Shown here piece by piece: positions 5,894 to 63,938 of a stretch of DNA of 64,000 bases (the stretch's first letter is position 1; each line of letters starts with the position of its first letter). Origin of the DNA: Simplicispira psychrophila DSM 11588 (lineage in GTDB: Bacteria; Pseudomonadota; Gammaproteobacteria; Burkholderiales; Burkholderiaceae_C); the NCBI RefSeq assembly GCF_000688255.1, contig NZ_JHYS01000006.1, positions 62,001-126,000 on the forward strand. The letters run 5' to 3'. The notes below the pieces were generated by a model. It was given only the letters and a program-made list of their open reading frames with translations, did no database searches and had not been told where the DNA came from. Position numbers and translations under genes: made by a program.

Positions 5894-5953
5894 CCAGGTC
5901 TTTTAGGTCTCTAAGGCACATGGGGTAAGCGCTGATAGCTATGAAAATAATAG
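5894..5953 (-). repeat. Dispersed repeat copy 1, at gpsA start
   Basis: Read on the minus strand this copy runs CTATTATTTTCATAGCT, then ATCAGCGC, and ends in GAGACC plus A/T-rich sequence. It aligns closely with the copy at the recJ start. The gpsA ATG at 5941 and its first codons lie inside it. Confidence 0.75.
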
Positions 5954-6948
5954 TGATTGGTGCCGGTGCCTTTGGCACGGCGATGGCCGTCAGCGCGGCC
6001 GCCCATCCGGCCGGCCACGCGGTCACGCTGTGGGCGCGCGATGCGCAGCAACTGGACACCTTGCAGGCGACGCGCAGCAATGCGCGCTACCTGCCTGGGG
6101 TCGTCCTGCCGCCGGCATTGGCGCTGGTTGGCGGCGATATGGCGGCGCTGGTTGCCACGGCCGATCTGGTCATCGTCGCCACACCGATGGCGGCGCTGCG
6201 TACCGTGCTGGCGCAGTTGCGCCACTGCCGCGTACCGCTGGCTTGGCTGTGCAAAGGTTTTGAGACCACGCAGGGGCCGGATGCCGTCGGTTTGATGGCG
6301 CACGAGGTTTGCGCGCAAGCCGCGCCGGACTTGGCGGCTGGCGTGCTCAGTGGCCCCAGCTTTGCGCTGGAAGTGGCGCGGGCCCAGCCGACCGCGCTGG
6401 TCGCCGCCAGTGCCCACGCCCACGTGCGCAGCGCTCTGGTGCAAGCCTTTCACAGTTCCAGCCTGCGCATCTACGCCAACGACGACATCGTCGGCGTCGA
6501 AGCCGGGGGCGCCATCAAGAACGTGCTGGCGATTGCCACCGGCCTGTGCGATGGCCTGCAATTGGGACTGAACGCCCGCGCCGCGCTGATCACGCGCGGC
6601 TTGGCGGAAATGACCCGCCTGGGCCTGGCGCTGGGCGCGCGCACCGAGACTTTTATGGGTCTGTCGGGCGTTGGTGATCTGGTGTTGACGGCGACCGGCG
6701 ATCTGTCACGCAATCGCCGCGTCGGTCTGCTGCTGGCGCAGGGTCAGACGCTGGAGCAAGCCGTGGCCTCGCTGGGCCATGTGGCGGAGGGCGTGTACTG
6801 CGCGCGCACCGTGGTGCAGCGCGCGCGCCATCTGGGGGTGGACGTGCCCATCAGCGAAGCCGTGGTGGGGCTGCTCGATGGCCAGCTGCAACCGCTGGAG
6901 GCCCTAGCCGTGCTGATGGACCGAGGTCCCAAGGGCGAGGCCGATTGA
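5941..6948 (+). CDS. gpsA: Glycerol-3-phosphate dehydrogenase [NAD(P)+]
   Basis: A 335-aa cytoplasmic enzyme that reduces dihydroxyacetone phosphate to sn-glycerol-3-phosphate for phospholipid synthesis. The dinucleotide-binding loop GAGAFG is at residues 7-12, the second conserved block LSGPSFA is present, and the catalytic lysine is K193 in GGAIKNV. The start codon and the codons for MKII come from a dispersed repeat copy, and no good ribosome site is visible upstream (nearest purine run is GGGGTAAG, about 12 nt away). Translation may therefore be weak or coupled to secB. Confidence 0.94.
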
Positions 6949-6972
6949 GCCGCTGCCGGCCACGCCATTCAC

Positions 6973-7011
6973 AAAAAAGCCACTGGCACACGATAAGTGT
7001 GTACAGTGGCT
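6973..7011. terminator. Bidirectional terminator between gpsA and proX
   Basis: An 8-bp stem AGCCACTG/CAGTGGCT (6978-6985 with 7004-7011) is extended by an inner CACAC/GTGTG stem. On the minus strand it is followed by six T, making a good terminator for the proVWX operon. On the plus strand the tail is a weak TGTTTACT after gpsA. Confidence 0.7.
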
Positions 7012-7019
7012 GTTTACTA

Positions 7020-7068
7020 TGTTAATAGTAGCTGCAAGCGCTTTATAGATAAGGGCTAGAAGCCTATT
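7020..7068 (+). repeat. Dispersed repeat copy 2, gpsA/proX
   Basis: AATAGTAGCTGCAAGCGC, a variable spacer, then AAGGGCTAGAAGCC. It lies between the terminator hairpin and the proX stop; a second, inverted AATAATAGCT just to the right (7071-7080) carries the proX TAA. Confidence 0.75.
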
Positions 7069-7074
7069 TAGCTA

Positions 7075-8097: not shown

Positions 8098-8184
8098 CGT
8101 TGATGTCTCCTGAGTGGGTAAATCAATAAATCTGCACGCCAGTTGGGTTGAGTACAACCCAACCTGCGGGTGACGGATGATTTG

Positions 8185-8240
8185 TGCTATTTTTGGCCTA
8201 TAGCCCTTTAAATACATGCGCTACTAGCTATCATTTTTGA
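8185..8240 (-). repeat. Dispersed repeat copy 3, proW/proX
   Basis: On the minus strand: AAAAATGATAGCTAGTAGCGC, spacer, then AAAGGGCTATAGGCCAAAAA (read with a break at the spacer). It includes the proW stop TGA and fills much of the proW-proX gap. Confidence 0.75.
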
Positions 8241-9454
8241 TGGGCCATATTGGTGGATTGGGTTGTACCCAACCCAACATCTGCCCTAGAGCGCAGCAGT
8301 CGCAGCAAAAAGCCCGCCGGGCCGGTGTGCCACCAGTGGCGCACGCCCCGGCGTGGCTGGCCGAGCGACTGAGTGATGCGGTCGAGCGTGATGGCCAGCA
8401 GCACAATGCCCAGGCCGCCAACGGTAGCCAGACCCATGTCCAGACGGCCAATGCCGCGTAGCACCATCTGGCCCAGGCCACCGACGGCGATCATCGAAGC
8501 GATCACCACCATCGACAGCGACAGCATCAGTGACTGGTTGACGCCGGCCATGATCGACGGCATGGCCAGCGGCAATTGCACCTTGCGCAGCATTTGTAGC
8601 GGCGAGGCGCCGTAGGCGCGCCCGGCCTCGATCAGATCGGGGCGCACTTGGCGAATACCCAGGTTGGTCAGGCGCACCAGCGGCGGCAGGGCAAACACAA
8701 TGGTGACGATGACGCCGGGCACGTTGCCAATGCCAAACAGCATCACCACCGGCACCAAATAGACAAAGGCTGGCGTGGTCTGCATGGCGTCCAGGAAGGG
8801 ACGCATGAAGTTTTGCGCCCGGTCGCTCGATGCCAGCACAATCCCCAGCGGCAGCCCGATCAGCAGACAGAACGCCAGTGAGGTCAGCACCAGCGATAGC
8901 GTGACCATGGCCTCGGGCCAGACGCCCAGCACCGTCACCAGCAGCAGCGACACCACGGTGCCCAGTGCGATGGCGCGCCCGGCAAATTGCCAAGCCAGCA
9001 GTCCCATGAGGGCGATCATCGCCCACGATGGCGTGCTCAGCAGCAGGCTTTCAACACCGCGCAAGGTGCTGTCGATGGGCCCGCGCACGGTCTGGAAAAA
9101 GGGGCGGAAATGGGCTACCACCCATTCCAAGCCATGGTTGATCCACGACTCCATCGGCAGCGAGCCGTCCCACAACTGGTGCAGCTCAAAGCCGTTGCTG
9201 TGGGGCGTACTGAGGGCGGCTGCTGCACCATCGAGGCTGTCGGTGGGTGTGCTCAGCCAGTCGGCATCAGCAGCCGGGCCGTCGTCCGAGGGCGTCAGGG
9301 CGGCCCAGGGGTCGCTATGGCTGGCGGTGCTGGATGGCGGCTCGGCAGCTGTTTCAAACTGGCTGGCCAAAGGATTGGCGTCAGTAGGGAAAGGCAAAGG
9401 AGCGGCGCTAGTGCCGCTCAGTGCCAGATCGGCGCCAGGGAGGGGTTCGTTCAT
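8231..9454 (-). CDS. proW: Glycine betaine/proline ABC transporter permease
   Basis: A 407-aa inner-membrane permease of the ProW/OpuAB family. The first 100 or so residues are a Pro/Ala/Ser-rich cytoplasmic extension. Membrane helices follow from about residue 125, and the BPD-transport signature [12 protein letters not shown] occurs in the cytoplasmic loop that contacts the ATPase. The start is the ATG at 9454, 15 bp after the proV stop, with no clear ribosome site. The last codons before the TGA run into a dispersed repeat. Confidence 0.9.
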
Positions 9455-9469
9455 AGTCAAATTTTTGGG

Positions 9470-10735: not shown

Positions 10736-11087
10736 GGGGGCAAATCTCCTGGGTGGGGGAATAGCGTTGCCTCAGAAAAACCGATGCAGCGGCCACGCCC
10801 GGTGGTGCGGCTGCACGCGGGACGATAAAAGGTGGACACATCGGGGTGCCCAGGGGGTGCTGCCCGCTCAACAGGGGGGGCGATGCAGGACCGGGGGAGC
10901 GCTTCAAAAGAGGTCTGGACAGAGGACTCTTGATGCACGCTTCAATAAGGTCGGCATCAAGCAGAAACTGCAGCGGCGCCGGGTTCTATCCGTGCCGAAA
11001 ATTCGGCAGGGCGCAAGGCCCATTTGGCAATTCCCAAGCTCTGGGAAAGTTCGATTACCTTCATTGAAGGTTGTAAAACACCGGCAA
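10736..11087 (-). promoter_or_regulatory. Long untranslated leader of proV operon
   Basis: There is no convincing gene between proV and the promoter at 11088-11116. If that promoter is used, the proV mRNA has a leader of about 345 nt. It is GC-rich with several G runs (around 10850-10905). I recognise no riboswitch class in it. Osmotic or RNA-level control is possible, but this is inference. Confidence 0.35.
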
Positions 11088-12183: not shown

Positions 12184-13908
12184 TCAGGACGGTTGCGGCG
12201 GGTGGCGACAGGCGGCGTAGATGTCTTGTTCCGCTTGGTAGGCGCTGCTGTGCACGTCCAGCAGGCCGAGCACCGAGTGGAAGTACGCATCGTGCGTGAT
12301 GCGCCGCTCGCTCAGGTCTTTTTGCAGGCAGGTGGTGCTGACGCCGCTGCGCGCCTGCAGGCCGGGCGAGAGCCAGGTGATCCACGGCACCTGCTTTTGC
12401 ACGTCAGGGGCGATGGCGTAAGGCAGGCCGTGCAGGTAAATGTTGTTTTCGCCCAGCGATTCACCATGATCAGCTACATAAATCATAGCTGTTTGCGCTT
12501 TTGCTGATTGGGTTTCAAGCCACTTTATCGTCGATTGCAGTAGCTGGTCGGTGGCCAGAATGCTGTTGTCATAAGCGTTCACAACTTGCTGCTGCGAGCA
12601 TTCCTGCAATGCGCTGGAGGTGCATTCGGGCTGAAACTGCTTCAAGTCCGGGGCCGAGCGTTTGTAGTAGGCCGGCCCGTGGCTGCCCATCTGGTGCAGC
12701 ACCACGACGGTGCCGCGTGCGCGCTGCTCGGGTGGCAGGGCGGCAATGCGCTGGTCCAGGTCTTGCAGCAAGATCGGGTCGAGGCACTCGCCACCAGAGC
12801 AGAGCGCGGGGTCTTTTTGCGCGCTGGTGCTGGCGTAGTGCACCCGGTCGCAAATGCCTTTGCAGCCGGACTGGTTGTCCACCCACAGTACGGCCAAGCC
12901 GGCGTGTTGCAGCACGTCGAGCAGGTTTTCATCGTTGCCACTGCGGCTCTCGAATCTGGATTTGCCGAGGTGCGAGAACATGCAGGGCAGCGAGGCGGCC
13001 GTGCTGGTGCCACACGACCAGGCGTTGCGCGCACTGCTCAGATCAGTGCGTGCCGACAGCCGTGGCGTGGTCTGGCGGGTGTAGCCGTTGAGACCAAAGT
13101 TGCCGCTGCGCCCAGTTTCGCCCAGCACCAGCACCAGCAGCGGCGCCTGGGTCTGTCCGGTGTAGCTGGCGCCCAGCTGGGCGTCGCGTCCCAAGGGATG
13201 CAGGGTGTGGTTTTCCGGGTTCAGGGTCCGGGTGGCGACCAGGCTCAGCGCATACACGCTGTTGAGCGGATTGATCAGGTAGCGCAGCTGGGTGTGGTTG
13301 CGCATGGTGGAAGAAAAATCCTGGAACACCAGCAGCAGACTGGCGACGATGACGCCGATGGTCACGACCAGCAGCAGGGCGTTGTGCCCCAGCTGGCGCA
13401 GCACGCCCAAGCGCCGCAGCGGGCGCGAGTAGAGCCAAAGCAGGGGCGGCGCGGCCAAGACCAGCACCGTCACTGGCAAGCGCCAGTTCAGCAGGTCAGC
13501 GGCTTCGCGCGGGTCGGTTTGCAGTACGTTGGTCAACATGCTGGCGTCGATGACGATGCCGTAGGCCATCATGAAATAGGCGCCAAACGCTGCCATGAGC
13601 AGCAGCACCGTCACCGCCGGTTTGAGGGTCAAGCGCCAGCTCAGCAGGCTGAGCAGCGCTGCATTGCCCGCCGCCACGATCAGCGCAAAGGCCAAGGCAA
13701 AGCCCCAGCCGCGCAGGCTGCCCTGCCCCGGCAGTGCGGCCACCGCGCGCCATAGCGGCACATTGCACACCGTGGCCAGCCAAGTGCTGATCAGCAGGAC
13801 CACCCAAGCCGGGTGCAGGACGCTGGCGGCGGGAGTGAGCACAGGGGCGGACAAGGGGGCGGACAAAGAGGTGGCCGAGGGCCGCAGACGTCGAAGGAGC
13901 AAAGACAT
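12184..13908 (-). CDS. eptA: Lipid A phosphoethanolamine transferase, EptA/MCR-like
   Basis: A 574-aa inner-membrane enzyme with five N-terminal helices (within residues 35-195) and a periplasmic alkaline-phosphatase-fold domain. Catalytic landmarks: E264 (metal, in LGETGRS), nucleophile T303 in SCGTSTA with flanking Cys C299 and C309, and the metal motif ADHGESLGE. It is expected to add phosphoethanolamine to lipid A, which in this family lowers polymyxin susceptibility. I chose the ATG at 13908, with GAGGAA about 10 nt upstream; the frame extends to 13968, overlapping fghA. A dispersed repeat encodes about residues 460-477, just before the DHGE motif, apparently without damage. Confidence 0.88.
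   Translation of the reverse strand: MSLLLRRLRPSATSLSAPLSAPVLTPAASVLHPAWVVLLISTWLATVCNVPLWRAVAALPGQGSLRGWGFALAFALIVAAGNAALLSLLSWRLTLKPAVTVLLLMAAFGAYFMMAYGIVIDASMLTNVLQTDPREAADLLNWRLPVTVLVLAAPPLLWLYSRPLRRLGVLRQLGHNALLLVVTIGVIVASLLLVFQDFSSTMRNHTQLRYLINPLNSVYALSLVATRTLNPENHTLHPLGRDAQLGASYTGQTQAPLLVLVLGETGRSGNFGLNGYTRQTTPRLSARTDLSSARNAWSCGTSTAASLPCMFSHLGKSRFESRSGNDENLLDVLQHAGLAVLWVDNQSGCKGICDRVHYASTSAQKDPALCSGGECLDPILLQDLDQRIAALPPEQRARGTVVVLHQMGSHGPAYYKRSAPDLKQFQPECTSSALQECSQQQVVNAYDNSILATDQLLQSTIKWLETQSAKAQTAMIYVADHGESLGENNIYLHGLPYAIAPDVQKQVPWITWLSPGLQARSGVSTTCLQKDLSERRITHDAYFHSVLGLLDVHSSAYQAEQDIYAACRHPPQPS
12479..12530 (+). repeat. Dispersed repeat copy 4, inside eptA-like gene
   Basis: ATCATAGCTGTTTGCGC, spacer, then ATTGGGTTTCAAGCC. 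It is read in frame on the opposite strand as KWLETQSAKAQTAMIY. It is a degenerate but recognisable copy. Confidence 0.55.
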
Positions 13909-14837: not shown

Positions 14838-14850
14838 GGTAATTAAAACT

Positions 14851-14906
14851 CCTAAAAAAATAGCTGCAAGCGCATGTATATAAAGCGTTTGCAGCTGTTT
14901 TGATAC
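14851..14906 (+). repeat. Dispersed repeat copy 5, adhC/fghA
   Basis: AAAAAAATAGCTGCAAGCGC, spacer, then AAAGCGTTTGCAGCTGTTTTGA. It fills about half of the 115-bp gap. The internal GCTGCAAGCGC / GCGTTTGCAGC complementarity could form a hairpin. Confidence 0.75.
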
Positions 14907-14952
14907 GCAAATCTTTGTGGCGATTGCGCTATGTGCTCATCTTTTATTTAAC

Positions 14953-23461: not shown

Positions 23462-24451
23462 ATGAAGCATCCGCGCGACATTTTGCTCGGGGCGCAAGCG
23501 GCTAGCGCTGCTTTGCCGGTCTGCGACCACTACAGTGGCGCGCCGGCGCGGATGCTGAAAAGCCTGCAATTGCAGGCTGAAATGACGCAGGAGTTGGGTG
23601 CCTGCGTGTTTGACGTCACCCTAGATTGCGAAGACGGCGCCCCGGTGGGCGGCGAAGCCCAGCACGCCCAGCTGGTGGCGCAACTGGCCCGTGACGCCGC
23701 TCCCGGCGCGCGCGTTGCCGCTCGCGTCCACCCGGTCGATCACCCCGCCTTTGCCAACGACATGGCCACCATTGCCGGTCAAGCCGGCCATCGCCTGTGC
23801 CACATCATGCTGCCCAAGGTCGAGTCGGTGGACGATGTTTTGCGGGCTGAAAAAGCCCTGGAGCGCGCTGGTGCTGGGCATTTGCCGCTGCATGTATTGA
23901 TTGAATCTGCCGCTGCAGTACAGCGCGCCTTTGACATCGCTGCGCACCCGCGCGTGCAAAGCCTGAGTTTTGGGCTGATGGACTTTGTCTCGGCCCACGG
24001 CGGCGCCATTCCGGCCAGCGCCATGGGTTCTGCCGGACAGTTTTCGCACCCGCTGGTGGTGCGCGCCAAACTAGAAATATCCGCCGCCTGCCACGCCCAT
24101 GGCAAAGTGCCATCGCACTGCGTCGTCACCGAATTCAATGACAGCGCCGCTTTACAGGCGTCTGCCACTCGGGCCGCGCGTGAGTTTGGCTACACGCGCA
24201 TGTGGAGCATCCACCCGGCCCAGATCCGTCCCCTTTTGGCCGCGTTTGCGCCGACCCGGGACGATATTGAAATTGCTTCTAAAATAATAGCTAATGCCGC
24301 TTTAGCTGATTGGGCTCCGATCAGTTTTGAGGGTGCATTGCACGACCGTGCCAGCTACCGCTACTTCTGGCAGGTGCTGGAGCGCGCACACCACACCGGC
24401 CAGGCCTTGCCGAGTGCCGTGCAACCCTGGTTCTCTTCCTCCTGTTCCTGA
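23462..24451 (+). CDS. CitE-like CoA-ester lyase (HpcH/HpaI family)
   Basis: A 329-aa TIM-barrel protein of the citrate lyase beta / malyl-CoA lyase family. Metal-site features are visible: DCEDGAP near residue 60, LPKVES near 120, and SFGLMDF near 165. It starts 5 bp after mdh, so it is certainly co-transcribed. Its substrate is unknown; malyl-CoA or citramalyl-CoA cleavage would fit the context. Residues about 272-286 ([12 protein letters not shown]) are encoded by a dispersed repeat. Confidence 0.8.
24276..24318 (+). repeat. Dispersed repeat copy 6, inside CitE-like gene
   Basis: AAAATAATAGCTAATGCCGC, spacer, then TGATTGGGCTCC. It is read in frame near the 3' end of the gene. The left half fits the family well, the right half is degenerate. 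Confidence 0.5.
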
Positions 24452-31720: not shown

Positions 31721-32347
31721 ATGTATTCGCCCCCATCATTTGCCGAGACCGAAACGAGTGCACTGCACCACCTGATTCAGACGTGTCCGTTCGGCGCGCT
31801 GGTGACCCACTCGCCCCAAGGCTTGAACGCGAACCACATTCCGTTTGAGCTGGATGCACAGCGCGGTGAGTACGGCACGCTGGTGGCGCATATCGCCCGC
31901 GCCAATCCGCTGTGGTCTGACCTCTCCCGCGAGGCGGAAGTCATGGTAATTTTTCAGGGCGCGCAGGGCTACATTTCGCCCAATTGGTACCCGAGCAAGC
32001 AGGAGACGCACCGCCATGTGCCGACTTGGAACTACGAAGTCGTGCACGCCCATGGCCTGCTGCGGGTGATCGAGGACGAAAAATTCTTGCGCGCCATCGT
32101 CGGTCGTCTGACACAGCGCCATGAGGCCACGCAAGCACGCCCTTGGAAAATGGCCGATGCGCCGCGCGACTACCTAGACCAGATGCTGAAGATGATTGTC
32201 GGCATCGAGATCGAGGTGACCCGTTTGGAAGGCAAACGCAAACTCGGACAAAACCGCGAGCTGCGTGACCGTGATGGAGCGATTCACGCTCTAAAGGAGC
32301 GCGGTGACTTGGCGTTGTCGGCCGCTATGGAACGGGTGAAATATTAA
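31721..32347 (+). CDS. PaiB-family FMN-binding protein
   Basis: A 208-aa protein of the FMN-binding split-barrel PaiB family. Diagnostic blocks are YISPNWYPSK, HVPTWNYEVVHAHG and GKRKLGQNR. In Bacillus PaiB was described as a negative regulator of degradative enzymes, but no DNA-binding domain is visible, so an oxidoreductase role is equally possible. AGAGG lies 7-8 nt before the ATG. Its stop lies at the edge of a dispersed repeat that also ends the convergent U32 gene. Confidence 0.82.
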   Translation: MYSPPSFAETETSALHHLIQTCPFGALVTHSPQGLNANHIPFELDAQRGEYGTLVAHIARANPLWSDLSREAEVMVIFQGAQGYISPNWYPSKQETHRHVPTWNYEVVHAHGLLRVIEDEKFLRAIVGRLTQRHEATQARPWKMADAPRDYLDQMLKMIVGIEIEVTRLEGKRKLGQNRELRDRDGAIHALKERGDLALSAAMERVKY

Positions 32348-32402
32348 AAATGATAGCTGTTAGTGCACGTATCTAAATGGCTACAGCCATATTTTATTCA
32401 AA
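32343..32402 (+). repeat. Dispersed repeat copy 7, between convergent genes
   Basis: AAAAATGATAGCTGTTAGTGC, spacer, then AAATGGCTACAGCCATATTTT (read with a break at the spacer). It fills the whole 46-bp gap between two convergent genes and carries the stop codon of the U32 gene; the TAA of the PaiB-like gene is at its left edge. Confidence 0.75.
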
Positions 32403-33825: not shown

Positions 33826-35004
33826 TCAGCCGTTGGGTCGGAAGCCGATTTCAATCATTGGTGGCACCCGGCCATCGACGTCGCGCGGCAGGGTGTCGGT
33901 TTTTTCCAGGGCGCGCAGCACGGCGTCGTCCCATGCTTTGTTGCCACTGGACTGGATCAGTTTGGTGCCAATAATGGTGCCGTCGGGTGCGGCGCGCACC
34001 TGCACCACGGCGTGCGGGTTGCCGCTCACTGCGTCGGGATAGACGATGTTGGGCTTGACCTTGGCCGCCACTTTGCCGCCATAGGCGCCCGATGGGCCGG
34101 CGGTCGTTTTGTCTTTGCCAGTAGCGTGTTCGCCACCGGTAGCGTTGGCCAAGCCTTGCATGCGGCGCAGGGCTTCTTCGCGGCGTGCATCGGCGGCTTT
34201 GGCGCTGGCTTTTTCTAGCGATTCTTGCTTGCGTTTGGCTTCGGCAGCTTCAGCGGCCTCGGCGGCCTGCTTCTTTTTATTTTCCGCAGCCTGCTGTTTT
34301 TTGTCTTCGACCGCTTGTTGCTTTTTCTCTTCAGCGGCCTGTTTTTGTTTTTCCAGTTTCGCCAGACGTTCTTTTTCGCGCTCGGCCTTATCGGCTTTCT
34401 CGCGTTCGGCTTTTTGCTGCTCTGCCTTGTCGTGCTGGGCGCGTTTTTCTTTCTCCAGCCGCTCTTTTTTCTCCTGCTCCACGCGCTCTTTCTTTTCTTC
34501 TGCCTTGCGCTCTTTCTCGCGTTTTTCACGTTCCAGCTGTTGCTGGTGCTCTTTTTTTTCTTTTTCCAGGCGCTTTTTCTCGCGCTCGATGGCGATATCC
34601 GCTTCGCGCGTGTCTGGCTCGGCCTGACGGGGAGGTGGTGGCGGTGGTTTAGGTGCTGGGGGAGCCGGTGCTCGAACGGGCCGTGGTGGCGGTGGCTGCA
34701 CTGGCTGCGGCTTCACTGGCGGTGGTGGCTTCACTGGCACCGGCGGCACCGGCGCTGGTGGCGGTTGTATGGCAGGTGTCGACGCTGTAGGCGCAGCGGC
34801 GCGCGGTGCGGCCTGCTGTGGCACGGCGGCCCACAGTTCGGCTTCGACGGCCGGCGTGTCGCTGCTGCTCTTCCAGTTCACGCCCCAGGTTAGAGCTACG
34901 ATCAGCAGCACATGCGCCAGCACCGCCAGCACCACCGCGCGCAGGCGTGCCGGCTGCTCGGGTGGAGAAAACTGGTCGCGATCTGGGGGCGTGGTGGTGT
35001 GCAT
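33826..35004 (-). CDS. tolA: Cell-envelope integrity protein TolA
   Basis: A 392-aa protein of the Tol-Pal system. It has one N-terminal membrane helix (about residues 23-43), then a Pro-rich segment (about 70-130) and a long Lys/Glu/Ala-rich helix (about 130-285, built of EKER/KQQA-type runs). The C-terminal TonB-like domain contains VKPNIVYPDAVSGNP. It spans the periplasm and links the TolQR motor to TolB-Pal. It follows ybgC, tolQ and tolR, but tolB and pal are not downstream. Confidence 0.9.
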   Translation of the reverse strand: MHTTTPPDRDQFSPPEQPARLRAVVLAVLAHVLLIVALTWGVNWKSSSDTPAVEAELWAAVPQQAAPRAAAPTASTPAIQPPPAPVPPVPVKPPPPVKPQPVQPPPPRPVRAPAPPAPKPPPPPPRQAEPDTREADIAIEREKKRLEKEKKEHQQQLEREKREKERKAEEKKERVEQEKKERLEKEKRAQHDKAEQQKAEREKADKAEREKERLAKLEKQKQAAEEKKQQAVEDKKQQAAENKKKQAAEAAEAAEAKRKQESLEKASAKAADARREEALRRMQGLANATGGEHATGKDKTTAGPSGAYGGKVAAKVKPNIVYPDAVSGNPHAVVQVRAAPDGTIIGTKLIQSSGNKAWDDAVLRALEKTDTLPRDVDGRVPPMIEIGFRPNG

Positions 35005-40071: not shown

Positions 40072-40546
40072 GGACGCTTTCTTGGGTAAACCACAGTGGG
40101 CCGCAGTGGTGCGCAGCGTGTCATGCAAGCTCCCCGGTGCTGGCGCCAGACGGCAAGACCGGCTGTCGCCAACGCCCCAAAGAACATGCGATGCGGCGCT
40201 GCCGCACGGTGAACCGGTGTGCTGCACAGCACGTCGATGCAAAAAGGCACAATTTTAGTGCAGCAGGGCACGGTGTGTATCCAAGGCCCTGCGGCCAGCC
40301 ACGCTGACGGTGTCAGAGGCGCCCGCTTGAGCCCCGGCGGGCCAGATCTCTCTGGAGGGTATGCAGGGATATGAAATACAGGTCAAAATGGCCTCTAGAC
40401 CAATGAATATAAGCGCTTTTAGCTATATATTTTAATGTCCTGTGGCGCCAGCGCTGCAGCCGCTGCCAGTCGCGCTATGCTGGCACCAGACGCCCAACTG
40501 CGGCCTGGCAGGCCCCCCGAGTACGGGTGCCCTACGAAAGGAAGCC
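40072..40546. other. Intergenic region, ribB / response regulator
   Basis: These 475 bp separate divergent genes and hold no convincing gene. The part next to ribB is GC-rich. A dispersed repeat lies at 40379-40439, and the stretch 40370-40440 is the only A/T-rich part. I find no FMN riboswitch element and no promoter hexamers I would defend. Confidence 0.6.
40379..40439 (-). repeat. Dispersed repeat copy 8, upstream of response regulator
   Basis: On the minus strand: TTAAAATATATAGCT, AAAAGCGC, spacer, then GGTCTAGAGGCCATTTTGACC. It is one of the better-preserved copies and lies free between divergent genes. Confidence 0.75.
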
Positions 40547-43991: not shown

Positions 43992-44030
43992 CGAGATTTT
44001 CCCCGCCGGTGCACCGGCCATAAATAGCAG

Positions 44031-44080
44031 TGTTTTATGGCTCAAGCCCTTATCCAGTCAGCGCTTACAGCTATAAAAAA
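44031..44080 (-). repeat. Dispersed repeat copy 9, cls/trpS
   Basis: On the minus strand: TTTTTTATAGCTGTAAGCGC, spacer, then AAGGGCTTGAGCC. The T run at its start serves as the tail of the trpS terminator. Confidence 0.7.
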
Positions 44081-44098
44081 GAGCGCCTGGGCGCTCTT
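44075..44098 (-). terminator. Terminator after trpS
   Basis: AAGAGCGCC (44079-44087) pairs with GGCGCTCTT (44090-44098) and is followed on the minus strand by TTTTTT, which belongs to a dispersed repeat. The same stem lies about 90 bp downstream of cls on the other strand, but there without a T run. Confidence 0.75.
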
Positions 44099-49804: not shown

Positions 49805-51520
49805 TCAGGTCTGCGCGCCTTCAATCAAAAACTGCACCTTGCGCTCGCCGCGCCATTCATTCACGTCCAGCCGAAAGGCCAGCAGCACTTTGCTCGGTAG
49901 CTGGTCGGTGTGCCCAAACCAGACGCCATCGACTGGCTGGCCGTGGTGCAGCAACTTCAGCGACAGGTGATTTTTGTCGGCACCGACCAGGCGCTGGCTG
50001 AGCACCTGCACTTCTTCGCTGAAGGTCGGCGGCGCAAAGCCTTGGCCCCAGACCTCGCGGTGCAGCGTATCGACCACATCGGCACGGCAGTATTGCGGCG
50101 CCAGCGGGCCATCGGTGGCGATGCGCTCGGTCAGGGTGGCGGCGTCCAGCCACTCGCTGGCGATGCGCGCCAGCGCCTGCTCAAACACCTCGAACTGACC
50201 CGCCGCAAGGGTGCAGCCCGCCGCCATGGCGTGGCCGCCAAATTGCAGCAGCACGCCGGGGTGGCGCTTGGACACCAAATCAATCGCATCGCGCAGATGA
50301 AAGCCCGGAATCGAGCGGCCCGAGCCTTTGAGTTCGCCTTCATGGCCGGGCGCGCTGCTGGCGGCAAAGACAAACGTCGGCCGGTGCAGCTTGTCTTTGA
50401 TACGCGAGGCCACGATGCCGACCACGCCTTGATGAAAATCCGCGTCAAACACGCTGATGGCAGGCGGCGGGTTGTCGTCCTCGTTGAACAAGTTTTCCGC
50501 CAGCAGCAGTGCTTGATCGCGCATTCCGCCCTCAATATCGCGCCGTTCGCGGTTGATGCGGTCCAGCGTGCGCGCCAGTGCGTCGGCGCGCCCGGCGTCG
50601 TCGGTCAGCAGGCATTCGATGCCAATCGTCATATCCGCCAAGCGTCCGGCAGCGTTGATGCGTGGGCCCAAGGCAAAGCCAAAGTCGAAGGTGGTAGCCA
50701 CCGCCGCTTTGCGCCCGGCGACGTTGAACAGCGCCGCCATACCGGCGGGCATATGACCGGCACGGATACGTTTCAGACCCTGCGCCACCAAACGGCGGTT
50801 ATTGGCGTCCAACACTACCACGTCGGCCACGGTGCCTAAGGCGACCAGCGGCAGCAGCGCGTCGAGTTTCGGCTGCGAGGCCGTATCAAAAAAACCCCGC
50901 GCGCGCAGTTCGGAGCGCAGCGCCAGCAGCACATAAAACACCACGCCAACCCCCGCCAAATGCTTGCTGGCAAAACTGCAGCCGGGCTGGTTGGGGTTGA
51001 CGATGGCGTCCGCAAAGGGCAGTTGCGCAGCGGCCAGGTGGTGGTCGGTGACGACGACGCGCATCCCCAGCGTTTGGCCCTGCGCTACGCCTTCGACGCT
51101 GCTGATGCCGTTGTCCACAGTCATCAATACATCCGCGCCGCGCTGTTTCACGCGCTCGGCAATCGGTGCGGTCAAACCATAGCCGTCGATCACCCGGTCG
51201 GGCACCAAATAATCGACATGGCGTGCGCCCAGCAAGCGCAGACCACGCACCGCTACGGCGCAGGCGGTCGCGCCGTCGCAGTCGTAGTCGGCCACGATGC
51301 ACAAGTGCTGGTCTTGAGCGATAGCGTCGGCCAGCAGCGCGGCGGCAGTTTGAATGCCGTGCAGACCAGTCGGCGGCAGCAGACGTGCCAGACCATCGTC
51401 CAACTCGGCGGCGCTGCCCACGCCGCGCGCGGCATACAGCTGCGCCAACAGCGGGTGGACGCCCGCTTGCTCCAGCGCCCAAGCGGCGCGGGGAGGAATG
51501 TCTCGTGCTATTATTTTCAT
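49805..51520 (-). CDS. recJ: Single-stranded-DNA-specific exonuclease RecJ
   Basis: A 571-aa 5'-3' exonuclease of recombination and mismatch repair. DHH-family motifs: ADYDCDG (77-83), TVDNGIS (134-140) and TDHH (158-161); the DHHA1 block is GGHAMAAG. The start ATG and MKII codons lie in a dispersed repeat, and the ATG overlaps the upstream gene's TGA (ATGA). No ribosome site is visible, so it probably depends on coupling. It converges with the chemoreceptor gene 13 bp away. Confidence 0.94.
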   Translation of the reverse strand: MKIIARDIPPRAAWALEQAGVHPLLAQLYAARGVGSAAELDDGLARLLPPTGLHGIQTAAALLADAIAQDQHLCIVADYDCDGATACAVAVRGLRLLGARHVDYLVPDRVIDGYGLTAPIAERVKQRGADVLMTVDNGISSVEGVAQGQTLGMRVVVTDHHLAAAQLPFADAIVNPNQPGCSFASKHLAGVGVVFYVLLALRSELRARGFFDTASQPKLDALLPLVALGTVADVVVLDANNRRLVAQGLKRIRAGHMPAGMAALFNVAGRKAAVATTFDFGFALGPRINAAGRLADMTIGIECLLTDDAGRADALARTLDRINRERRDIEGGMRDQALLLAENLFNEDDNPPPAISVFDADFHQGVVGIVASRIKDKLHRPTFVFAASSAPGHEGELKGSGRSIPGFHLRDAIDLVSKRHPGVLLQFGGHAMAAGCTLAAGQFEVFEQALARIASEWLDAATLTERIATDGPLAPQYCRADVVDTLHREVWGQGFAPPTFSEEVQVLSQRLVGADKNHLSLKLLHHGQPVDGVWFGHTDQLPSKVLLAFRLDVNEWRGERKVQFLIEGAQT

Positions 51521-51571
51521 AGCTTATAGCGCACGTCTTTAAATGGCTGGAGGCCAAAAAGGCTTGAAATA
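51507..51571 (+). repeat. Dispersed repeat copy 10, RpfE-like/recJ junction
   Basis: CTATTATTTTCATAGCT, TATAGCGC, spacer, then AAATGGCTGGAGGCCAAAAA and GGCTTGAAAT. It contains the recJ start codon and, on the same strand, the last 13 codons and the stop of the RpfE-like gene. Confidence 0.8.
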
Positions 51572-52488
51572 CGCTGGCGCAGGCTGCGCGGTGCGGTGTG
51601 CCAACTGAAGGCGCTGCATTCGCCGCACAGCGTCAGTTGCGCTGTGCTGCCACGGGCGACCTGCGCGGCCAGATCGGCCACGGGGCCGGCGTCCAACTGC
51701 TGCCAGGCGCTGGCCCAAGCAGCCCAGTCTTCACGCAAAGCGGCGTCGCGCAGGCTCAGCGGCATCTGCGGTGCGGGTGATTTTGGCGTGGCTGTTGCTG
51801 GTAAGCGCCCTGCGCCGTGTACCCAAAAAGCGTTGACGGTCGGCTGGCGCAGCGCCTCGCGTGCCTCGTTCCACGGGTGGGTGTAGAGCAGCATTTGCAT
51901 TTCGCTGTGCAGGCGGCGCAGCACCGGGTGCTGCTCGGCGGCTTGCAGCCAAGCGCGCACATCGCGGTGCAGCACGCGCTCCAGCGAGGTGCTGACCAGG
52001 TCGGCAAACACCTCGCCGTGCGCCAGCCAGCGGGTGGGCTGGTCATAGAGCAGCGTGATACCGTCTTGCTCAAACCACGGTGCCATCACTGCCAGCAGCG
52101 CGCGTGAACTGGCCTCGTCCAACCCCAGTGCCAGCGGGTCGTGCAGCGTGATGTGGTCGGTGCTGACCTGCCAATGGCAGGGGGTGATGAAGGCCCAGGC
52201 GGCGTTGTCCGGGGCCGAAGGAGCGATAGTGGCTGCGGTGTCGCTGTGGCGCACATGCCACGCTGCCCACGCCAGATGGCCGTCGGCGCCAGGCAAACCC
52301 AGCGCGCGCGCCAGGGCGCGTTCGTGTGGCGGCGAGGGGCTTTCTTCGTCACCGACATCGCCGGCCAGCGGCGACAGGCGCGCCAGCAGGCGCTCTAAGT
52401 GGGGCAGGGCGAGGCTGGCGAGCGCCTGTTGGCCACCGGCAGACTGCACGGCGGCATAAGGAATCAACAAATGGGGGGTGTCCGACAT
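51517..52488 (-). CDS. RpfE-like protein
   Basis: A 323-aa soluble protein. It resembles the RpfE-type regulatory proteins / predicted phosphoglycerate-mutase-like family described next to recJ in Xanthomonas. Recognisable features are HLLIPYA at the start, a central block HWQVSTDHITLHDP, and LYTHPWNEAREALRQPTVNAFWVHG (the first part shown). No signal peptide or membrane helix. The last 13 residues, ending KDVRYKL, are encoded by a dispersed repeat, and the stop overlaps recJ. Molecular function unknown. Confidence 0.65.
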   Translation of the reverse strand: MSDTPHLLIPYAAVQSAGGQQALASLALPHLERLLARLSPLAGDVGDEESPSPPHERALARALGLPGADGHLAWAAWHVRHSDTAATIAPSAPDNAAWAFITPCHWQVSTDHITLHDPLALGLDEASSRALLAVMAPWFEQDGITLLYDQPTRWLAHGEVFADLVSTSLERVLHRDVRAWLQAAEQHPVLRRLHSEMQMLLYTHPWNEAREALRQPTVNAFWVHGAGRLPATATPKSPAPQMPLSLRDAALREDWAAWASAWQQLDAGPVADLAAQVARGSTAQLTLCGECSAFSWHTAPRSLRQRISSLFGLQPFKDVRYKL

Positions 52489-52523: not shown

Positions 52524-53777
52524 ATGCAAATTCCCTACGAACTGGCCTTGGGCTGGCGCTACACCCGCGCCGGCCGCGCTACGCGGCGCAACGGCTTTAT
52601 CTCTTTTATTTCGGGTGTCTCCATGCTGGGCATTGCGCTCGGGGTGGCGGCGCTGATCATCGTGCTCAGTGTGATGAACGGCTTTCAAAAAGAAGTGCGC
52701 GACCGCATGCTCAGTGTCGTCTCGCACATCGAAATTTTTGCCCCCGGCGGTGCGGCGCTGCCTGACCCACAGCGCACCCTGGCGGAGGCGCGCAGTAATC
52801 CACAAGTGGTCGGTGCGGCGCCGTTTGTCGCGGCGCAGGCGCTGCTGGCGCGCGGCGAGGACATGAAAGGCGCGCTGGTGCGCGGCATCGACCCGGCGCA
52901 CGAGGGCGAAGTCACTGACTTGGCCGCTGCCAATGCCGCCGCCATTGCGCAACTGGTGCCGGGTGAATTTCGCGTGGTGCTGGGGGCGGAACTAGCGCGC
53001 TCGCTGGGAGTGATCACCGGCGATGTCGTCACGCTGATTGCGCCCTCCGGCCAAGTGACACCGGCCGGGGTGGTGCCGCGCCTCAAGCAGATGACGGTGG
53101 CCGGCACCTTTGATTCGGGCCACTATGAATACGACTCGGCGCTGGTGCTGCTGCACCACCAGGATGCCGAGCGTATTTTTCGCCTCGAAGGGCCGACCGG
53201 CATCCGCCTCAAATTGAAGGACTTGCACCAGGCGCGTGCCGTCGCCTACGAGCTGGCTGGCAGCCTCAGCGGCGACCTGCTGATCCGCGACTGGACGCAG
53301 CAGAACAAAACCTGGTTTGCCGCTGTCGAGCTGGAGAAACGCATGATGTTCATCATCCTGACGCTGATCGTCGCCGTGGCGGCGTTCAACCTGGTGTCCA
53401 CGTTGGTGATGACGGTGACCGACAAGCGCGCCGACATCGCCATCCTGCGCACGCTGGGCGCCAGTCCGCGCAGCATCATGGGCATTTTTGTGGTGCAGGG
53501 CGCCATGGTCGGCGTGATTGGCACGCTCAGCGGCTTGCTGTTGGGGCTGCTGATTGCGGTCAACATTGACGTCATCGTGCCGGCGCTGGAGTCGCTGTTA
53601 CAGGCCAACTTCTTGCCCAAAGACATCTACCTGATCAGCAAAATGCCCAGCGACCCGCAAAGCAGCGACATCCTACCGATTGCCATCATCTCGCTGGTGC
53701 TGTCGTTTTTAGCGACGCTGTACCCTAGCTGGCGCGCCAGCCGTGTCAATCCTGCGGAGGCATTGCGCTATGAATAA
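52524..53777 (+). CDS. lolC: Lipoprotein-releasing system permease LolC/LolE
   Basis: A 417-aa inner-membrane permease with one N-terminal helix (about 25-48), a large periplasmic domain and three C-terminal helices (from about 275). The FtsX/MacB-type blocks [18 protein letters not shown] and [19 protein letters not shown] are present. With LolD it extracts outer-membrane lipoproteins. Only one permease gene is present, so it probably acts as a homodimer (LolF-like), as in organisms without separate LolC and LolE. It is divergent from the RpfE-like gene. Confidence 0.9.
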
Positions 53778-53832
53778 CGAAGCTAGAACCGCACTCCCTA
53801 TAAGCGTTGCAGCCCAAAACGACTTAAAAAAA
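53770..53832 (+). repeat. Dispersed repeat copy 11, at lolD start
   Basis: The right half (TATAAGCGTTGCAGCCCAAA, then ACGACTTAAA) fits the family; the left half (AATAACGAAGCTAGAACCGC) is degenerate. The whole stretch is read as the N-terminal extension of LolD. Confidence 0.45.
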
Positions 53833-54851: not shown

Positions 54852-55694
54852 ATGCCCGCTTGGATAGACACCCACTGCCACCTCGACGCGGCTGAATTTG
54901 CGCCTGACGTGGATGCGGTGCGTGCAGCAGCGCGGGCAGCGGGCGTGCAGCATTTGGTGATTCCCGGGGTCGAGCTGGCCCACTGCGACGCGGTGCAGGC
55001 ACTGGCGCAGCGCCACGGCGACAGCTACGCGCTGGGCATCCACCCGCTCTATACCGGCTGCGCGGGCGATAGTGATGTGGCGGCGCTGGCGCAATTCTTG
55101 GAGCGTGTGCGCCATGACCCGCACTTGGTCGCGGTCGGCGAAATCGGCCTAGATTACTTCGTCCCCGGACTGGACGCCGCGCGGCAAGAGCAGTTTTACC
55201 GCGCGCAATTGCAACTGGCGCGGCGCTTCGATTTGCCGGTGATCCTGCACGTGCGCCGCTCTGCCGACCGACTGCTCAAAGGCTTGCGCGAGTTGCCGGT
55301 GCCGGGCGGCATCGCCCACGCTTTTAACGGCAGCTTGCAGCAGGCACGTGCTTTCATCGCGCTGGGCTTTAAGCTGGGATTTGGCGGCGCGCTGACCTTT
55401 GAGCGCGCGCTGCAACTGCGCCGTTTGGCGACCGAACTGCCGCCCGAAGCGCTGGTGCTAGAAACCGACGCCCCCGATATGCCGCCGCATTGGATTTACC
55501 GCACCGCCTTTGAGCGCGCCGCTGGCACGCCCCAAGGGCGCAACAGCCCGGCTGAGTTGCCGCGCATCGCCCAAGTGCTGGCGGATGTGCGTGGCGTGAC
55601 GTTGGCGGCGCTGGCCGAGCAGACGTCAGCCAATGCGCTACAGGCGCTGCCGCGTTTGCACGGGCGGGTAAATATAAGTCAAAAGTGCCTCTAG
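54852..55694 (+). CDS. tatD: TatD family metal-dependent DNase
   Basis: A 280-aa TIM-barrel metallohydrolase. The metal residues are H8 and H10 in DTHCHLD, the Glu of VAVGEIGLDY, the His in VILHVRRS, the His in IAHAFNGS and the Asp in LETDAPDMPP. TatD proteins have 3'-5' exonuclease activity and occur near lol or dnaX genes. The last residues ISQKCL and the stop TAG are encoded by a dispersed repeat, so the natural C-terminus may have been altered. Confidence 0.88.
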   Translation: MPAWIDTHCHLDAAEFAPDVDAVRAAARAAGVQHLVIPGVELAHCDAVQALAQRHGDSYALGIHPLYTGCAGDSDVAALAQFLERVRHDPHLVAVGEIGLDYFVPGLDAARQEQFYRAQLQLARRFDLPVILHVRRSADRLLKGLRELPVPGGIAHAFNGSLQQARAFIALGFKLGFGGALTFERALQLRRLATELPPEALVLETDAPDMPPHWIYRTAFERAAGTPQGRNSPAELPRIAQVLADVRGVTLAALAEQTSANALQALPRLHGRVNISQKCL

Positions 55695-55735
55695 CCCTTT
55701 AGATACGGGCGCTAGCAGCTATTTTTTTAATAGTG
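55675..55735 (-). repeat. Dispersed repeat copy 12, tatD end
   Basis: On the minus strand: CTATTAAAAAAATAGCT, GCTAGCGC, spacer, then AAAGGGCTAGAGGCACTTTT. It is the copy closest to the apparent consensus and contains the tatD stop codon. Confidence 0.85.
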
Positions 55736-55749
55736 CAAATGCCCGTTTT

Positions 55750-58442: not shown

Positions 58443-58445
58443 TCT

Positions 58446-60233: not shown

Positions 60234-60288
60234 CGGCGTGTCATGGTGTAACGTCTCACAATACCGCCTCTACCACCCCGCAGCGCGC

Positions 60289-61581: not shown

Positions 61582-61661
61582 GAGAGGCCTGCTGCTTTAT
61601 CCACTGTTTTGCTGTCCGTTGTCTTACCCCTTCACTGTATTTTTGACTGCACCCTTTTGCC

Positions 61662-62099
61662 ATGCCCCGTATCCAATTCCCCCTGCCTGAGCATTTCATC
61701 TTTTCGACCGAAATGCAGATCTACACCAGCCACATCAACTGGGGCGGCCACCTGGACAATGCGCAGCTGCTGACGCTGGTGTCGGAAGCGCGTTCGCGAT
61801 TTTTTCGCTGGCTGGATTACCGCGAAGCGCAGGTTGAGCACTGCTCCATCGTCGTCGGTGATGTGGTGGCGCAGTACAAATCCGAAGCCTTTCATGGTGA
61901 AACCATGGTGGTGCAGATGGTGCCGACCGACTTCAATCGCTACGGTTTCGACCTCGCCTTTCAGATGAGCGATAAAGCCTCGGGCCGTGAAGTGGCGCGC
62001 GGCAAGCAGGGCATTGTGTTCATTGATTTGGCAGAGAAAAAAGTGACCGCGCTGCCGGAAGCCTTCTGCGCGCGCTTGGCGGCCCGCAGCACGCTGTGA
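61662..62099 (+). CDS. Hot-dog fold thioesterase
   Basis: A 145-aa 4HBT-like protein. The signature YTSHINWGGHLDNAQLL with an Asp, and the HGETM and YGFDLAFQM strands, fit acyl-CoA thioesterases. Substrate unknown. The ribosome site is not clear. It stands alone on the same strand as the flanking genes. Confidence 0.75.
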   Translation: MPRIQFPLPEHFIFSTEMQIYTSHINWGGHLDNAQLLTLVSEARSRFFRWLDYREAQVEHCSIVVGDVVAQYKSEAFHGETMVVQMVPTDFNRYGFDLAFQMSDKASGREVARGKQGIVFIDLAEKKVTALPEAFCARLAARSTL

Positions 62100-62128
62100 G
62101 AGGAAGCCCCACTGCCGTGCTGAAAAAT

Positions 62129-62185
62129 ATATATAAAAAGTGTCTGTAACGCAGGTACAGCAAGCGCAGCTAGCTCACAAAAAAA
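62129..62185 (-). repeat. Dispersed repeat copy 13, DMT transporter start
   Basis: On the minus strand: TTTTTTTGTGAGCTAGCTGC, GCTTGC, spacer, then GTTACAGACACTTTTTATAT. It is degenerate but has the family layout. It includes the probable GTG start of the transporter. Confidence 0.45.
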
Positions 62186-63060
62186 GAGCGACCGGCATGC
62201 TGCTGGCGCTGCTGGGCGCGATGGCTTTTAGCGGCAAGGCGATCATCGTCAAACTGGCGTATCGCCATGGCGTGGATGCCGTCACGCTGATCATGTATCG
62301 CATGTTGTTTGCGCTGCCCATTTTTGCCACCATGGCCTGGTGGGCCAGCCGCAGCCAGCCGCCGCTCATGCGGCGCGATGCGCTGGGTGTGCTCGGCCTG
62401 GGCGTGTCCGGCTACTACTTGGCGAGTTTTTTGGACTTTGCCGGTCTGGCCTACATCAGCGCCAGCCTGGAGCGCCTGATCCTGTACCTGAACCCGACCA
62501 TCGTGCTGCTGCTGGGCTGGGCGGTGTATGGGCGTGCCATGCGCTGGGGGCAGGCGCTGGGCATGGCGATCAGTTACTGCGGGGTGGTGCTGGTGTTTGG
62601 TCAAGAGGCGCAGCTACCAGGGGGGCAGGGTGCGAATGCCGCCTGGGGCGCTTTGTTGGTGTTTTTGAGTGCGCTCAGTTACGCCATCTACCTGGTCTAC
62701 AGCGGCGAGATGGTGCAGCGCTTGGGCGCATTGCGCCTGGTCGGGCTGGCCACCACCGTCGCCTGTGGGCTGTGCCTGCTGCAATTTGTGCTGCTGCGCC
62801 CGCTCTCGGCGGCGCTGGTGGCGCCCGAGGTGGTCTGGCTGTCGGTGCTGAATGCCACGCTGTGCACCGCCGCGCCGGTGGTGATGGTGATGATGGCGGT
62901 CGAGCGCATTGGTGCCAGTGCTGCGGCGCAAGCCGGGATGATCGGCCCGCTCTCGACCATCCTGATGGGCGTGTGGCTGCTGGGGGAGCCGTTCACGCTG
63001 GCGGTGGCGGCCGGCACGGGATTGGTGCTGTTGGGGATTTTTGTTTTTACGCGCCGGTGA
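62140..63060 (+). CDS. DMT-superfamily EamA transporter
   Basis: A 306-aa inner-membrane protein with ten helices in two EamA repeats (first about 20-145, second about 165-300). Typical blocks are FSGKAIIVKLAYR and ASLERLILYLNPTIVLLLG. The substrate is unknown. The start is uncertain: GTG at 62140 (inside a repeat copy) or ATG at 62197, which begins just before helix 1; no ribosome site decides. Confidence 0.82.
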   Translation: MSVTQVQQAQLAHKKRATGMLLALLGAMAFSGKAIIVKLAYRHGVDAVTLIMYRMLFALPIFATMAWWASRSQPPLMRRDALGVLGLGVSGYYLASFLDFAGLAYISASLERLILYLNPTIVLLLGWAVYGRAMRWGQALGMAISYCGVVLVFGQEAQLPGGQGANAAWGALLVFLSALSYAIYLVYSGEMVQRLGALRLVGLATTVACGLCLLQFVLLRPLSAALVAPEVVWLSVLNATLCTAAPVVMVMMAVERIGASAAAQAGMIGPLSTILMGVWLLGEPFTLAVAAGTGLVLLGIFVFTRR

Positions 63061-63107
63061 GGGGTGATGGCACCGGCCGCATTGTTTTTGTTTTCTAGGA
63101 GCCATCG

Positions 63108-63938
63108 ATGGACTTAGGGATTTCAGGCAAATGGGCGTTGGTATGCGGCGCCAGCAAGGGTTTGGGCGCTGGCTGCGCGCAGGCATTGGTGCGTGAAGGC
63201 GTGAACGTGCTGATCAATGCACGCGGCAGCGAGGTCTTGGCCTTGGCTGCTACTGATTTAAGAGCTTTTGGCGCTGATGCAACAAGGGCTGGAGGCTCAA
63301 AATGGTCTCAACCCACTGTGCTGGCCGTCGCCGCGGATATCACCACTGCCGAAGGCCGCGCCGCAGTGTTCAGCGCAGCCGGTGGCCCAGGGCACGACTT
63401 TGACATCGTCGTCACTAACGCCGGTGGGCCGCCCACGGGCGATTTTCGTACCTGGGAGCGCGAGACCTGGATCAAAGCGGTGGATGCCAATATGTTGACG
63501 CCGATCGAGCTGATCCGTGCCACCGTGGACGGCATGGCGGCGCGTGGTTTTGGCCGCATCGTCAACATCACCTCCAGTGCCGTCAAGGCGCCGATTGACA
63601 TCCTGGGCTTGTCCAACGGCGCGCGCAGCGGTTTGACCGGCTTTGTCGCTGGCGTTGCACGCAGCCCGTTGGCACGGCATGGCGTGACGATCAACAACTT
63701 GCTGCCCGGACGCTTTGACACCGACCGCCTGGCCACTACCCTGATGGCTACCGCCGAAAAAATGGGCACCACGCTGGACGCCGTGCGCAAGGCCCAAGTG
63801 GCCAGCATTCCAGCTGGCCGCTTTGGTCGGGCACAAGAATTCGGTGCCATTTGTGCCTTTTTGTGCAGCGTACATGCGGGTTACATGACGGGGCAAAACA
63901 TGCTTGCAGATGGTGGGGTTTACCCGGGTACTTTCTAA
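63108..63938 (+). CDS. Atypical short-chain dehydrogenase/reductase
   Basis: A 276-aa SDR. The NAD(P) loop is CGASKGLG (13-20), the NAG motif NAGGPPTG is present, and the Ser of NITSSAVKAP aligns with the catalytic Ser. The usual YxxxK is missing: the place reads GLSNGARSGL. This occurs in a known divergent FabG-like subfamily, so it may lack ordinary SDR chemistry. AGGAG lies 6 nt before the ATG. A repeat copy encodes about residues 50-68, an insert before the VAADIT strand. Confidence 0.8.
   Translation: MDLGISGKWALVCGASKGLGAGCAQALVREGVNVLINARGSEVLALAATDLRAFGADATRAGGSKWSQPTVLAVAADITTAEGRAAVFSAAGGPGHDFDIVVTNAGGPPTGDFRTWERETWIKAVDANMLTPIELIRATVDGMAARGFGRIVNITSSAVKAPIDILGLSNGARSGLTGFVAGVARSPLARHGVTINNLLPGRFDTDRLATTLMATAEKMGTTLDAVRKAQVASIPAGRFGRAQEFGAICAFLCSVHAGYMTGQNMLADGGVYPGTF
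63255..63312 (+). repeat. Dispersed repeat copy 14, inside SDR gene
   Basis: AAGAGCTTTTGGCGC, spacer, then AAGGGCTGGAGGCTCAAAAT. The right half is very close to the family. It is read in frame as DATRAGGSKWSQ and neighbours. Confidence 0.65.

Follow-up and report, generated by a model that had tools for sequence, protein, structure and literature searches.

Repetitive extragenic palindromic sequences (REPs) are commonly regarded as DNA that spreads itself or is of some loose use to the cell, and their upkeep by selection is debated. Among the closest described systems to the one analysed here are the 'REPtrons', in which REPs or bacterial interspersed mosaic elements (BIMEs) go with TnpA-REP, a REP-associated tyrosine transposase (RAYT). 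Published REPs, in the portions of the two sources that describe them, have a GTAG-type head and a RAYT gene flanked by inverted REPs (PMC2817692; PMC8266576), and the latter source reports that the E. coli TnpA-REP cuts at a CT beside its REPs. Here we characterize a repeat of about 64 bp that recurs along 64,000 nucleotides of Simplicispira psychrophila DSM 11588 (the window: contig C6, positions 62001-126000, from the 3.6-Mb draft genome G000). These repeats form a genuine and old family that occurs across a single family of bacteria. We propose, with moderate confidence, that it is a REP-like element that a RAYT probably spread long ago and that is now kept as a sequence-constrained double-stranded DNA site.

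Our first model was built from the sequence of nine window copies and was later iterated into a profile. The nine-copy model gave its own copies 36-51 bits, by construction, and four further window places 12-22 bits; the iterated profile finds 14 places at 13.5 bits or more, nine of them strong, spanning 5898 to 63299, the same number and span as the fourteen copies listed in a sequence-only reading of the window. The main sample comprised 825 kb of the same genome, with copies called at 20 bits or more. It contains 170 matches at E<0.05, and a control in which this DNA was reversed has no match at E<1, so the expectation of more copies than chance elsewhere in the genome was borne out. Of its 158 non-overlapping matches, 136 reach 20 bits, about one per 6 kb, which extrapolates to roughly 600 copies genome-wide, and the best 150 matches of a whole-genome profile search all have E<=2e-6. 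Rfam at its gathering score gave no match in the 64-kb window, and a plasmid search with one repeat copy as the query returned a single weak match. Copy numbers in relatives are lower bounds, with the best 150 or best 37 matches scored per genome, and scans over 40 genomes used stricter filters. Within the family, 53 of the 150 genomes scanned carry the repeat, 12 of them with one to three matches, and in an order-wide draw at a stricter limit it occurs in two of 150 genomes, both of the same family.

Alignment is ungapped in 135 of the 136 matches, some of which are partial, and the variable gap of about 10 nt described earlier thus disappears. The conserved stretch has a consensus near ACTATTAAATTAATAGCTGCTAGCGCTTGTCTCATAAGGGCTAGAGGCCGATTTGACTCTAAAT, with 40% GC. 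Paralogous copies are on average 55% alike, yet some columns never vary: AGC (columns 13-15) and G23 are invariant in 135/135 copies, and columns 29-31, in the middle, are nearly free. Columns 11-14 read ATAG in 103 of the 135 copies, GTAG in 10 and GGAG in 1, and since GTAG, GGAG or GTGG stands near the foot in only 11 of the 135, a GTAG/GGAG head is absent as a family feature.

Two copies within genes, aroE and thiL (named by NCBI models above their cut-offs), could be followed between species. Of the 26 aroE rows, 21 score at least 20 bits, one scores 10.8 and one is fragmentary, and the three repeat-poor congeners give 10.1, 9.7 and no match. The 26 thiL rows include 22 of at least 16 bits and one of 8.3, and the three repeat-poor congeners have no match there. 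Among repeat-bearing species, agreement at the third codon positions that fall in family-conserved columns is 0.88 for aroE and 0.77 for thiL, compared with 0.66 and 0.59 for third positions elsewhere in the same genes, a level matched by 24 and 21 of 5000 random draws, respectively; the bases for this test came from a protein-guided alignment, without profile matches. The family base is kept in 0.89 of cells at conserved columns in both genes, versus 0.58 (aroE) and 0.32 (thiL) in the repeat-poor clade. Whole-codon identity is strongly raised in thiL (0.80 versus 0.61, with none of 281 windows as high) and weakly in aroE (0.76 versus 0.68, 14 of 240). All four sites that were followed between species are old and under constraint, and constraint at the DNA level at the examined sites calls for a putative reader. 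Rickettsia-type palindromic elements insert in frame into proteins, and copies of the present repeat do occur in coding DNA, many of them sharing a phase; however, aroE and thiL are of nearly equal length with and without the element and their proteins align without comparable length change, which rules out in-frame insertion for these two genes and makes an element of this type extremely improbable.

A more serious competitor is an ordinary non-autonomous, functionless REP-type mobile repeat, kept uniform by RAYT copying or conversion and avoiding genes and promoters because of the harm it does there. We consider this rather unlikely. The divergence of paralogues around columns that never vary speaks against it, as does the third-position constraint in aroE and thiL, and likeness is higher among orthologous copies (0.67-0.79) than among paralogues (0.55), a difference that conversion would blur. 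On the other hand, known REPs are thought to spread in this way, according to the relevant part of PMC8266576.

The repeat is nearly missing from one group of congeners. We found no match in G151, two in G155 and five in G153, against 120 to at least 150 in the other 22. A tree built from AroE and ThiL after removal of the element columns places these three together (Shimodaira-Hasegawa-like approximate likelihood ratio test, SH-aLRT, 100), in a group with the repeat-bearing G150 (95) and G157 (92); this genus tree is midpoint-rooted and has SH-aLRT support only. A RAYT tree that includes other genera also puts the clade inside. Given its nested position in the genus tree, the clade has probably lost its copies. 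Its relative G157 has 120 matches, the fewest of the other 22 and below the scoring limit of 150, and is perhaps a lineage in mid-loss. The two mapped congeners without the copy at window site 51508 are the repeat-poor G151 and G155, and three of the six without that at 53769 are likewise repeat-poor. In 400 kb of G151, both flanks could be placed for 15 of the 136 sites. Among the 13 non-coding ones, 11 are shorter by 37-104 bp (median 62) and two are longer, and the two coding sites differ by -9 and 0 bp. Intergenic sites of the repeat-poor clade are thus about 60 bp shorter, a deficit that an ordinary mobile REP would also explain, and the aroE and thiL sites were altered by substitution.

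With genes predicted by a home-made codon model (they fill 89-91% of the DNA) and each copy assigned by its midpoint, 116 of the 136 copies lie outside predicted genes and 20 inside. Convergent gaps hold 36 copies in 13.0 kb, tandem gaps 71 in 54.4 kb and divergent gaps 9 in 20.6 kb; copies avoid coding DNA and promoters and crowd at gene 3' ends, 84 of the 107 convergent or tandem copies lying within 50 bp of one. The preference for gene borders and the occurrence in both orientations that the sequence-only reading had described therefore hold in the larger sample. Close pairs are inverted in six of six cases, with 5' ends outward (12 of 158 copies are paired, and about 4.5 pairs would be expected by chance), as an ordinary mobile REP would lead one to expect, and no tandem arrays were seen among the 158 copies. 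Spacing, which speaks against such a repeat, is more even than a gap-type-weighted null (coefficient of variation, CV, 0.77 versus 0.93, P 0.009; with pairs merged 0.74 versus 0.925, P 0.001), in a test of one genome with our own gene caller. A chromosome-wide strand bias was considered and rejected: the best 150 copies of a complete congener divide into 87 plus and 63 minus, with local runs and no clean two-arm pattern.

The crowding at gene 3' ends would also suit an intrinsic, perhaps bidirectional, transcription terminator or a hairpin at mRNA ends. The consensus core is indeed an imperfect hairpin with stem mismatches, columns 50-52 read TTT in 99 of the 135 copies, and there is a slight folding excess. 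Yet copies in tandem gaps show no single orientation, 39 running with the genes and 32 against them in the 825-kb sample; AAA replaces TTT in 17 of the 135 copies, only three of which have TTT on the other side; the 20 copies within predicted genes fit poorly; and eight of nine folded window copies behave much like shuffled sequences (z -0.28 to -1.21, with -6.17 for 14840-14915). We regard a terminator as very unlikely, and the earlier description of the repeat as partly palindromic is matched by the consensus core and less so by most of the individual copies folded. The arms hardly covary: standard arm-to-arm pairs number 1280 of 1890 among the 135 copies and 1277 when arms are swapped between copies. 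Because covariation cannot arise in pairs whose 5' base never changes, this test rests on the variable pairs, of which pair 19-41 carries some signal (86 versus 73.5) and pair 24-36 an excess of about one copy over the arm-swapped set. Strong dependences between columns join only bases at most 7 apart, such as columns 50-52 (TTT or AAA) or 29 with 32. A coordinated swap of A-tract and T-tract kept by pairing, suggested by three window copies, was rejected, the 135 copies showing independent variation, and so was a reading as RNA structure, for which covariation, column-shuffle and arm-swap tests yield only a modest folding excess. Read-out as double-stranded DNA fits the covariation and dependence data best.

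The domain of the RAYT, PF01797, occurs in 112 of the 150 family genomes. The search for a RAYT that was proposed along with the fourteen copies turned up a relative in 23 of the 26 congeners, at 55-56% identity in three of these; the remaining three genomes are less than 70% complete. Genera with RAYT relatives include Acidovorax, Polaromonas, Variovorax, Rhodoferax, Curvibacter and Ottowia, and copies are present at RAYT loci in Polaromonas, Curvibacter, Rhodoferax, Ottowia, Comamonas and Xenophilus. Of the five PF01797 matches in the window's own genome, four are partial, with three lying at contig ends and the fourth 0.8 kb from one; the fifth is a full-length gene on contig C1, whose protein scores above the PF01797 cut-off. 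The partial matches are what multi-copy IS200-type elements would yield; genome G015 has 20 matches. The window's contig itself has no PF01797 match, so the claim that no transposase lies nearby is upheld as far as this family goes, other transposase families not having been searched.

We compared 36 RAYT loci: that of the window's genome and 35 others, taken from genomes for which a RAYT was listed and which had five or more repeat matches. Of these 36 loci, 34 have an open frame. A copy-like match (at least 12 bits; five reach at least 20) adjoins the RAYT stop in 10 of the 34, at -21 to +13 bp, and its best strand is opposite to the gene in 10/10. No RAYT in the 34 loci lies between two inverted copies: 10 have a 3' match and two a 5' match, and only in the window's genome does a copy stand on each side, both in one direction. 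Match density less than 300 bp from RAYT is 7.7 times that beyond 1 kb (14 in 20.4 kb versus 46 in 516 kb), counted without merging matches on both strands at one place. Most RAYT 3' flanks of repeat-bearing genomes resemble GGGGACAYATCAAAWTTGATAGC on the reverse strand, the second half of which is the repeat's 5' part, and GGGAC precedes the motif by at most 14 bases in 42 of 50 repeat-bearing versus 5 of 20 repeat-poor genomes. The repeat's 5'-end motif in this flank ranks above the 99th percentile set by the ends of other genes in 34 of the 50 (14/17 in the genus, 20/33 elsewhere) versus 2 of the 20 (0/3 and 2/17). From the 97 family genomes without a match, 20 repeat-poor loci had been chosen, and three of these, as well as three of the 23 genus loci (repeat-bearing, with the RAYTs of 55-56% identity), were left out for want of a usable frame. 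In a partly overlapping named set (67 of 80 loci with enough flank) the motif is found in 10 of 18 repeat-bearing versus 8 of 49 repeat-poor loci, repeat-poor here meaning no 20-bit copy in the flanks, a definition that misassigns at least one genome (Rhodoferax BP02). A GGGGTCAGA-type motif bounds many RAYT genes. Upstream of many RAYT genes stands a GGGGTCAGATTCCAATTA-like motif, with its inverse about 100 bp downstream, an arrangement that recurs in several genomic settings. The likeness of RAYT and repeat ends, which an ordinary mobile REP would share, suggests that the two may have a common recognition.

Several observations weigh against our proposal. The RAYT of the window's genome scores 75.7 bits in the NCBI model for REP-associated transposases, whose cut-off is 80. 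RAYT is retained in the clade without copies, and therefore does not by itself maintain them. Of the 722 gene 3' flanks in the window's genome, 141 (20%) contain a copy, so that one next to RAYT is not rare in itself, and a RAYT-side copy decaying together with all others would likewise associate the RAYT end with repeat abundance. The retention of RAYT and the share of gene flanks with a copy also favour a site family that is causally independent of RAYT, in which the RAYT gene simply carries along one of the many gene-end copies at its 3' end. This we find improbable in view of the identical orientation and distance in 10/10 cases and of the fact that most RAYT flanks keep the 5' part only, preceded by GGGAC, an arrangement not seen in the ordinary copies inspected. 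Upkeep by gene conversion could also hold the sequences. The four orthologous sets, the only ones studied for column agreement, support the proposal, with family-conserved columns agreeing at 0.83-0.94 and variable columns at 0.56-0.69; this test, however, took profile-found copies, which favours conserved columns, and at least three of its 22 aroE rows are probably another nearby copy. Real copies fold to -13.70 kcal/mol, a value reached by none of 40 arm swaps (-12.86 kcal/mol), and they also fold lower than copies with shuffled columns (-13.40 versus about -12.15 kcal/mol), making some hairpin role for the repeat possible.

How, then, does the repeat compare with described elements? It is like the REPtrons of the group 2, E. 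coli type in its hundreds of mostly extragenic copies, its imperfect palindrome with mismatches in the consensus stem, a RAYT that is mostly single in a genome, and few inverted pairs. A CT stands near both consensus ends (columns 0-1 and 55-56), as at E. coli REPs, beside which the part of PMC8266576 on TnpA-REP places the cut. It differs from REPtrons in length (about 64 bp versus 20-50 nt for REPs), in a foot that reads ATAG and not GTAG, in a RAYT that lacks two inverted flanking copies and is bounded by the GGGGTCAGA-type motif, and in having constrained orthologous copies, some within genes. The likeness to REP/BIME families drawn earlier thus survives in copy number, extragenic location, rarity in divergent gaps, inverted close pairs and a full-length RAYT that shares the 5' part, and does not extend to length, head or RAYT flanks, nor clearly to pair-level covariation. 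The repeat is REP-like in probable origin and placing, and by two tested features it is not a REP member. With miniature inverted-repeat transposable elements (MITEs), also invoked earlier, it shares being short, dispersed, intergenic and without a gene of its own; the age and constraint of the four compared sites do not present it as a MITE that is moving now. A MITE of Polaromonas (JS666 genome paper) is cited in the passage of PMC10969869 that concerns us.

Parts of the repeat have been printed before. A 2017 statistical scan lists, in the section concerned, two unnamed potential motifs, GCTTAT(N)5AAGCG with 114 copies in Acidovorax ebreus and ATAGCT(N)22CAAAAG with 125 in Polaromonas naphthalenivorans, and says that Rhodoferax ferrireducens has the most pairs (PMC5217627). 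These motif pairs have a gene context similar to that of our repeat (44 convergent, 4 divergent, 59 co-oriented), and that section reports the pair only, with no element length, RAYT link or function. GCTTAT(N)5AAGCG corresponds to the core of our repeat, and all 19 of its occurrences in the 825 kb overlap profile matches: four share the strand of the match, each at column 23, and the other 15 fall on the opposite strand of the palindrome. ATAGCT(N)22CAAAAG has no exact match in that sample, with at least two mismatches in each copy, and fits by geometry only. The Beta-proteobacterial repeat element (BRE) of Bordetella is likewise dispersed, mostly intergenic, sometimes within genes and also present in Comamonadaceae; as described in the relevant part of PMC3110155 it is 75-91 bp long, has 69% GC and is often in tandem, and length, base composition and tandem layout rule it out as the same element, by description and not by sequence. 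Comamonadaceae genera were sought in PMC3733652 and PMC6006769, and none were found in the portions available. The absence of a published name, remarked on earlier, also holds for the literature we searched, as far as its accessible parts go, with the qualification that fragments appeared in 2017 as the unnamed pairs above (PMC5217627).

The copies in the window are collected in Table 1. Separately, positions 34437-34580 hold 33-nt near-repeats with 24-63 bp spacing and GCGCTCTTTTT, perhaps coding for a charged repeat.

Table 1. Copies of the repeat in the window (window coordinates; scores in bits).
Feature	Position	Strand	Setting	Score and remarks
Copy, moderate	5898..5952	-	fills gap of two tandem genes	25.9 iterated profile; 18.3 nine-copy model
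Copy, strong	7017..7073	+	convergent gap	39.7
Copy, strong	8187..8241	-	tandem gap	46.1
Copy, moderate	12474..12525	+	within predicted gene	21.5 nine-copy model; 24.5 iterated profile
Copy, strong, near-perfect hairpin	14850..14903	+	tandem gap	37.9; fold z -6.17 (14840-14915 folded)
Copy, weak, partial	24276..24316	+	within predicted gene	12.2 nine-copy model; 18.0 iterated profile
Copy, strong	32344..32398	+	contacts both gene ends of convergent pair	42.3
Copy, strong	40381..40436	-	divergent gap	40
Copy, strong	44029..44082	-	convergent gap	38.5
Copy, strong	51508..51565	+	covers end of predicted gene 51517-52488(-)	45.3; orthologues in 9/11 mapped congeners
Copy, weak here	53769..53824	+		13.3; up to 36 in congeners; found in 7/13 mapped congeners
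Copy, window's best	55676..55733	-	convergent gap, overlaps left gene's end	50.7
Repeat-like match, weakest	62135..62176	-	tandem gap	14.5; E 0.024
Copy, strong	63250..63306	+	within short-chain dehydrogenase-like gene 63108-63938	36.3

Based on these comparisons we can outline how a constrained, REP-like DNA site might have arisen. A RAYT, as an HUH transposase, would have dispersed the repeat through the genome long ago, after which the copies would have been kept as constrained double-stranded DNA sites. A putative protein would read them, and may work on the organisation of the chromosome or of gene ends rather than on transcription. The clade of G151, G153 and G155 would then have lost the repeat once the constraint was lifted. 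In a more specific form, which we put forward tentatively as possible and short of probable, the approximately 600 sites per chromosome would serve a single chromosome-organising protein; they would have been recruited from RAYT-spread DNA, evenly spaced and selected even within conserved genes, and one clade would have lost the reader, leaving its sites to decay by deletion between genes and by substitution within them.

If this were true, the repeat-poor clade would be a natural knock-out of a bacterial chromosome-architecture system. Copies within conserved genes make third codon positions a direct test of selection at the DNA level, and a nested clade almost without copies offers a before-and-after comparison, in which a gene present in the repeat-bearing congeners and missing from the repeat-poor clade would name the reader.

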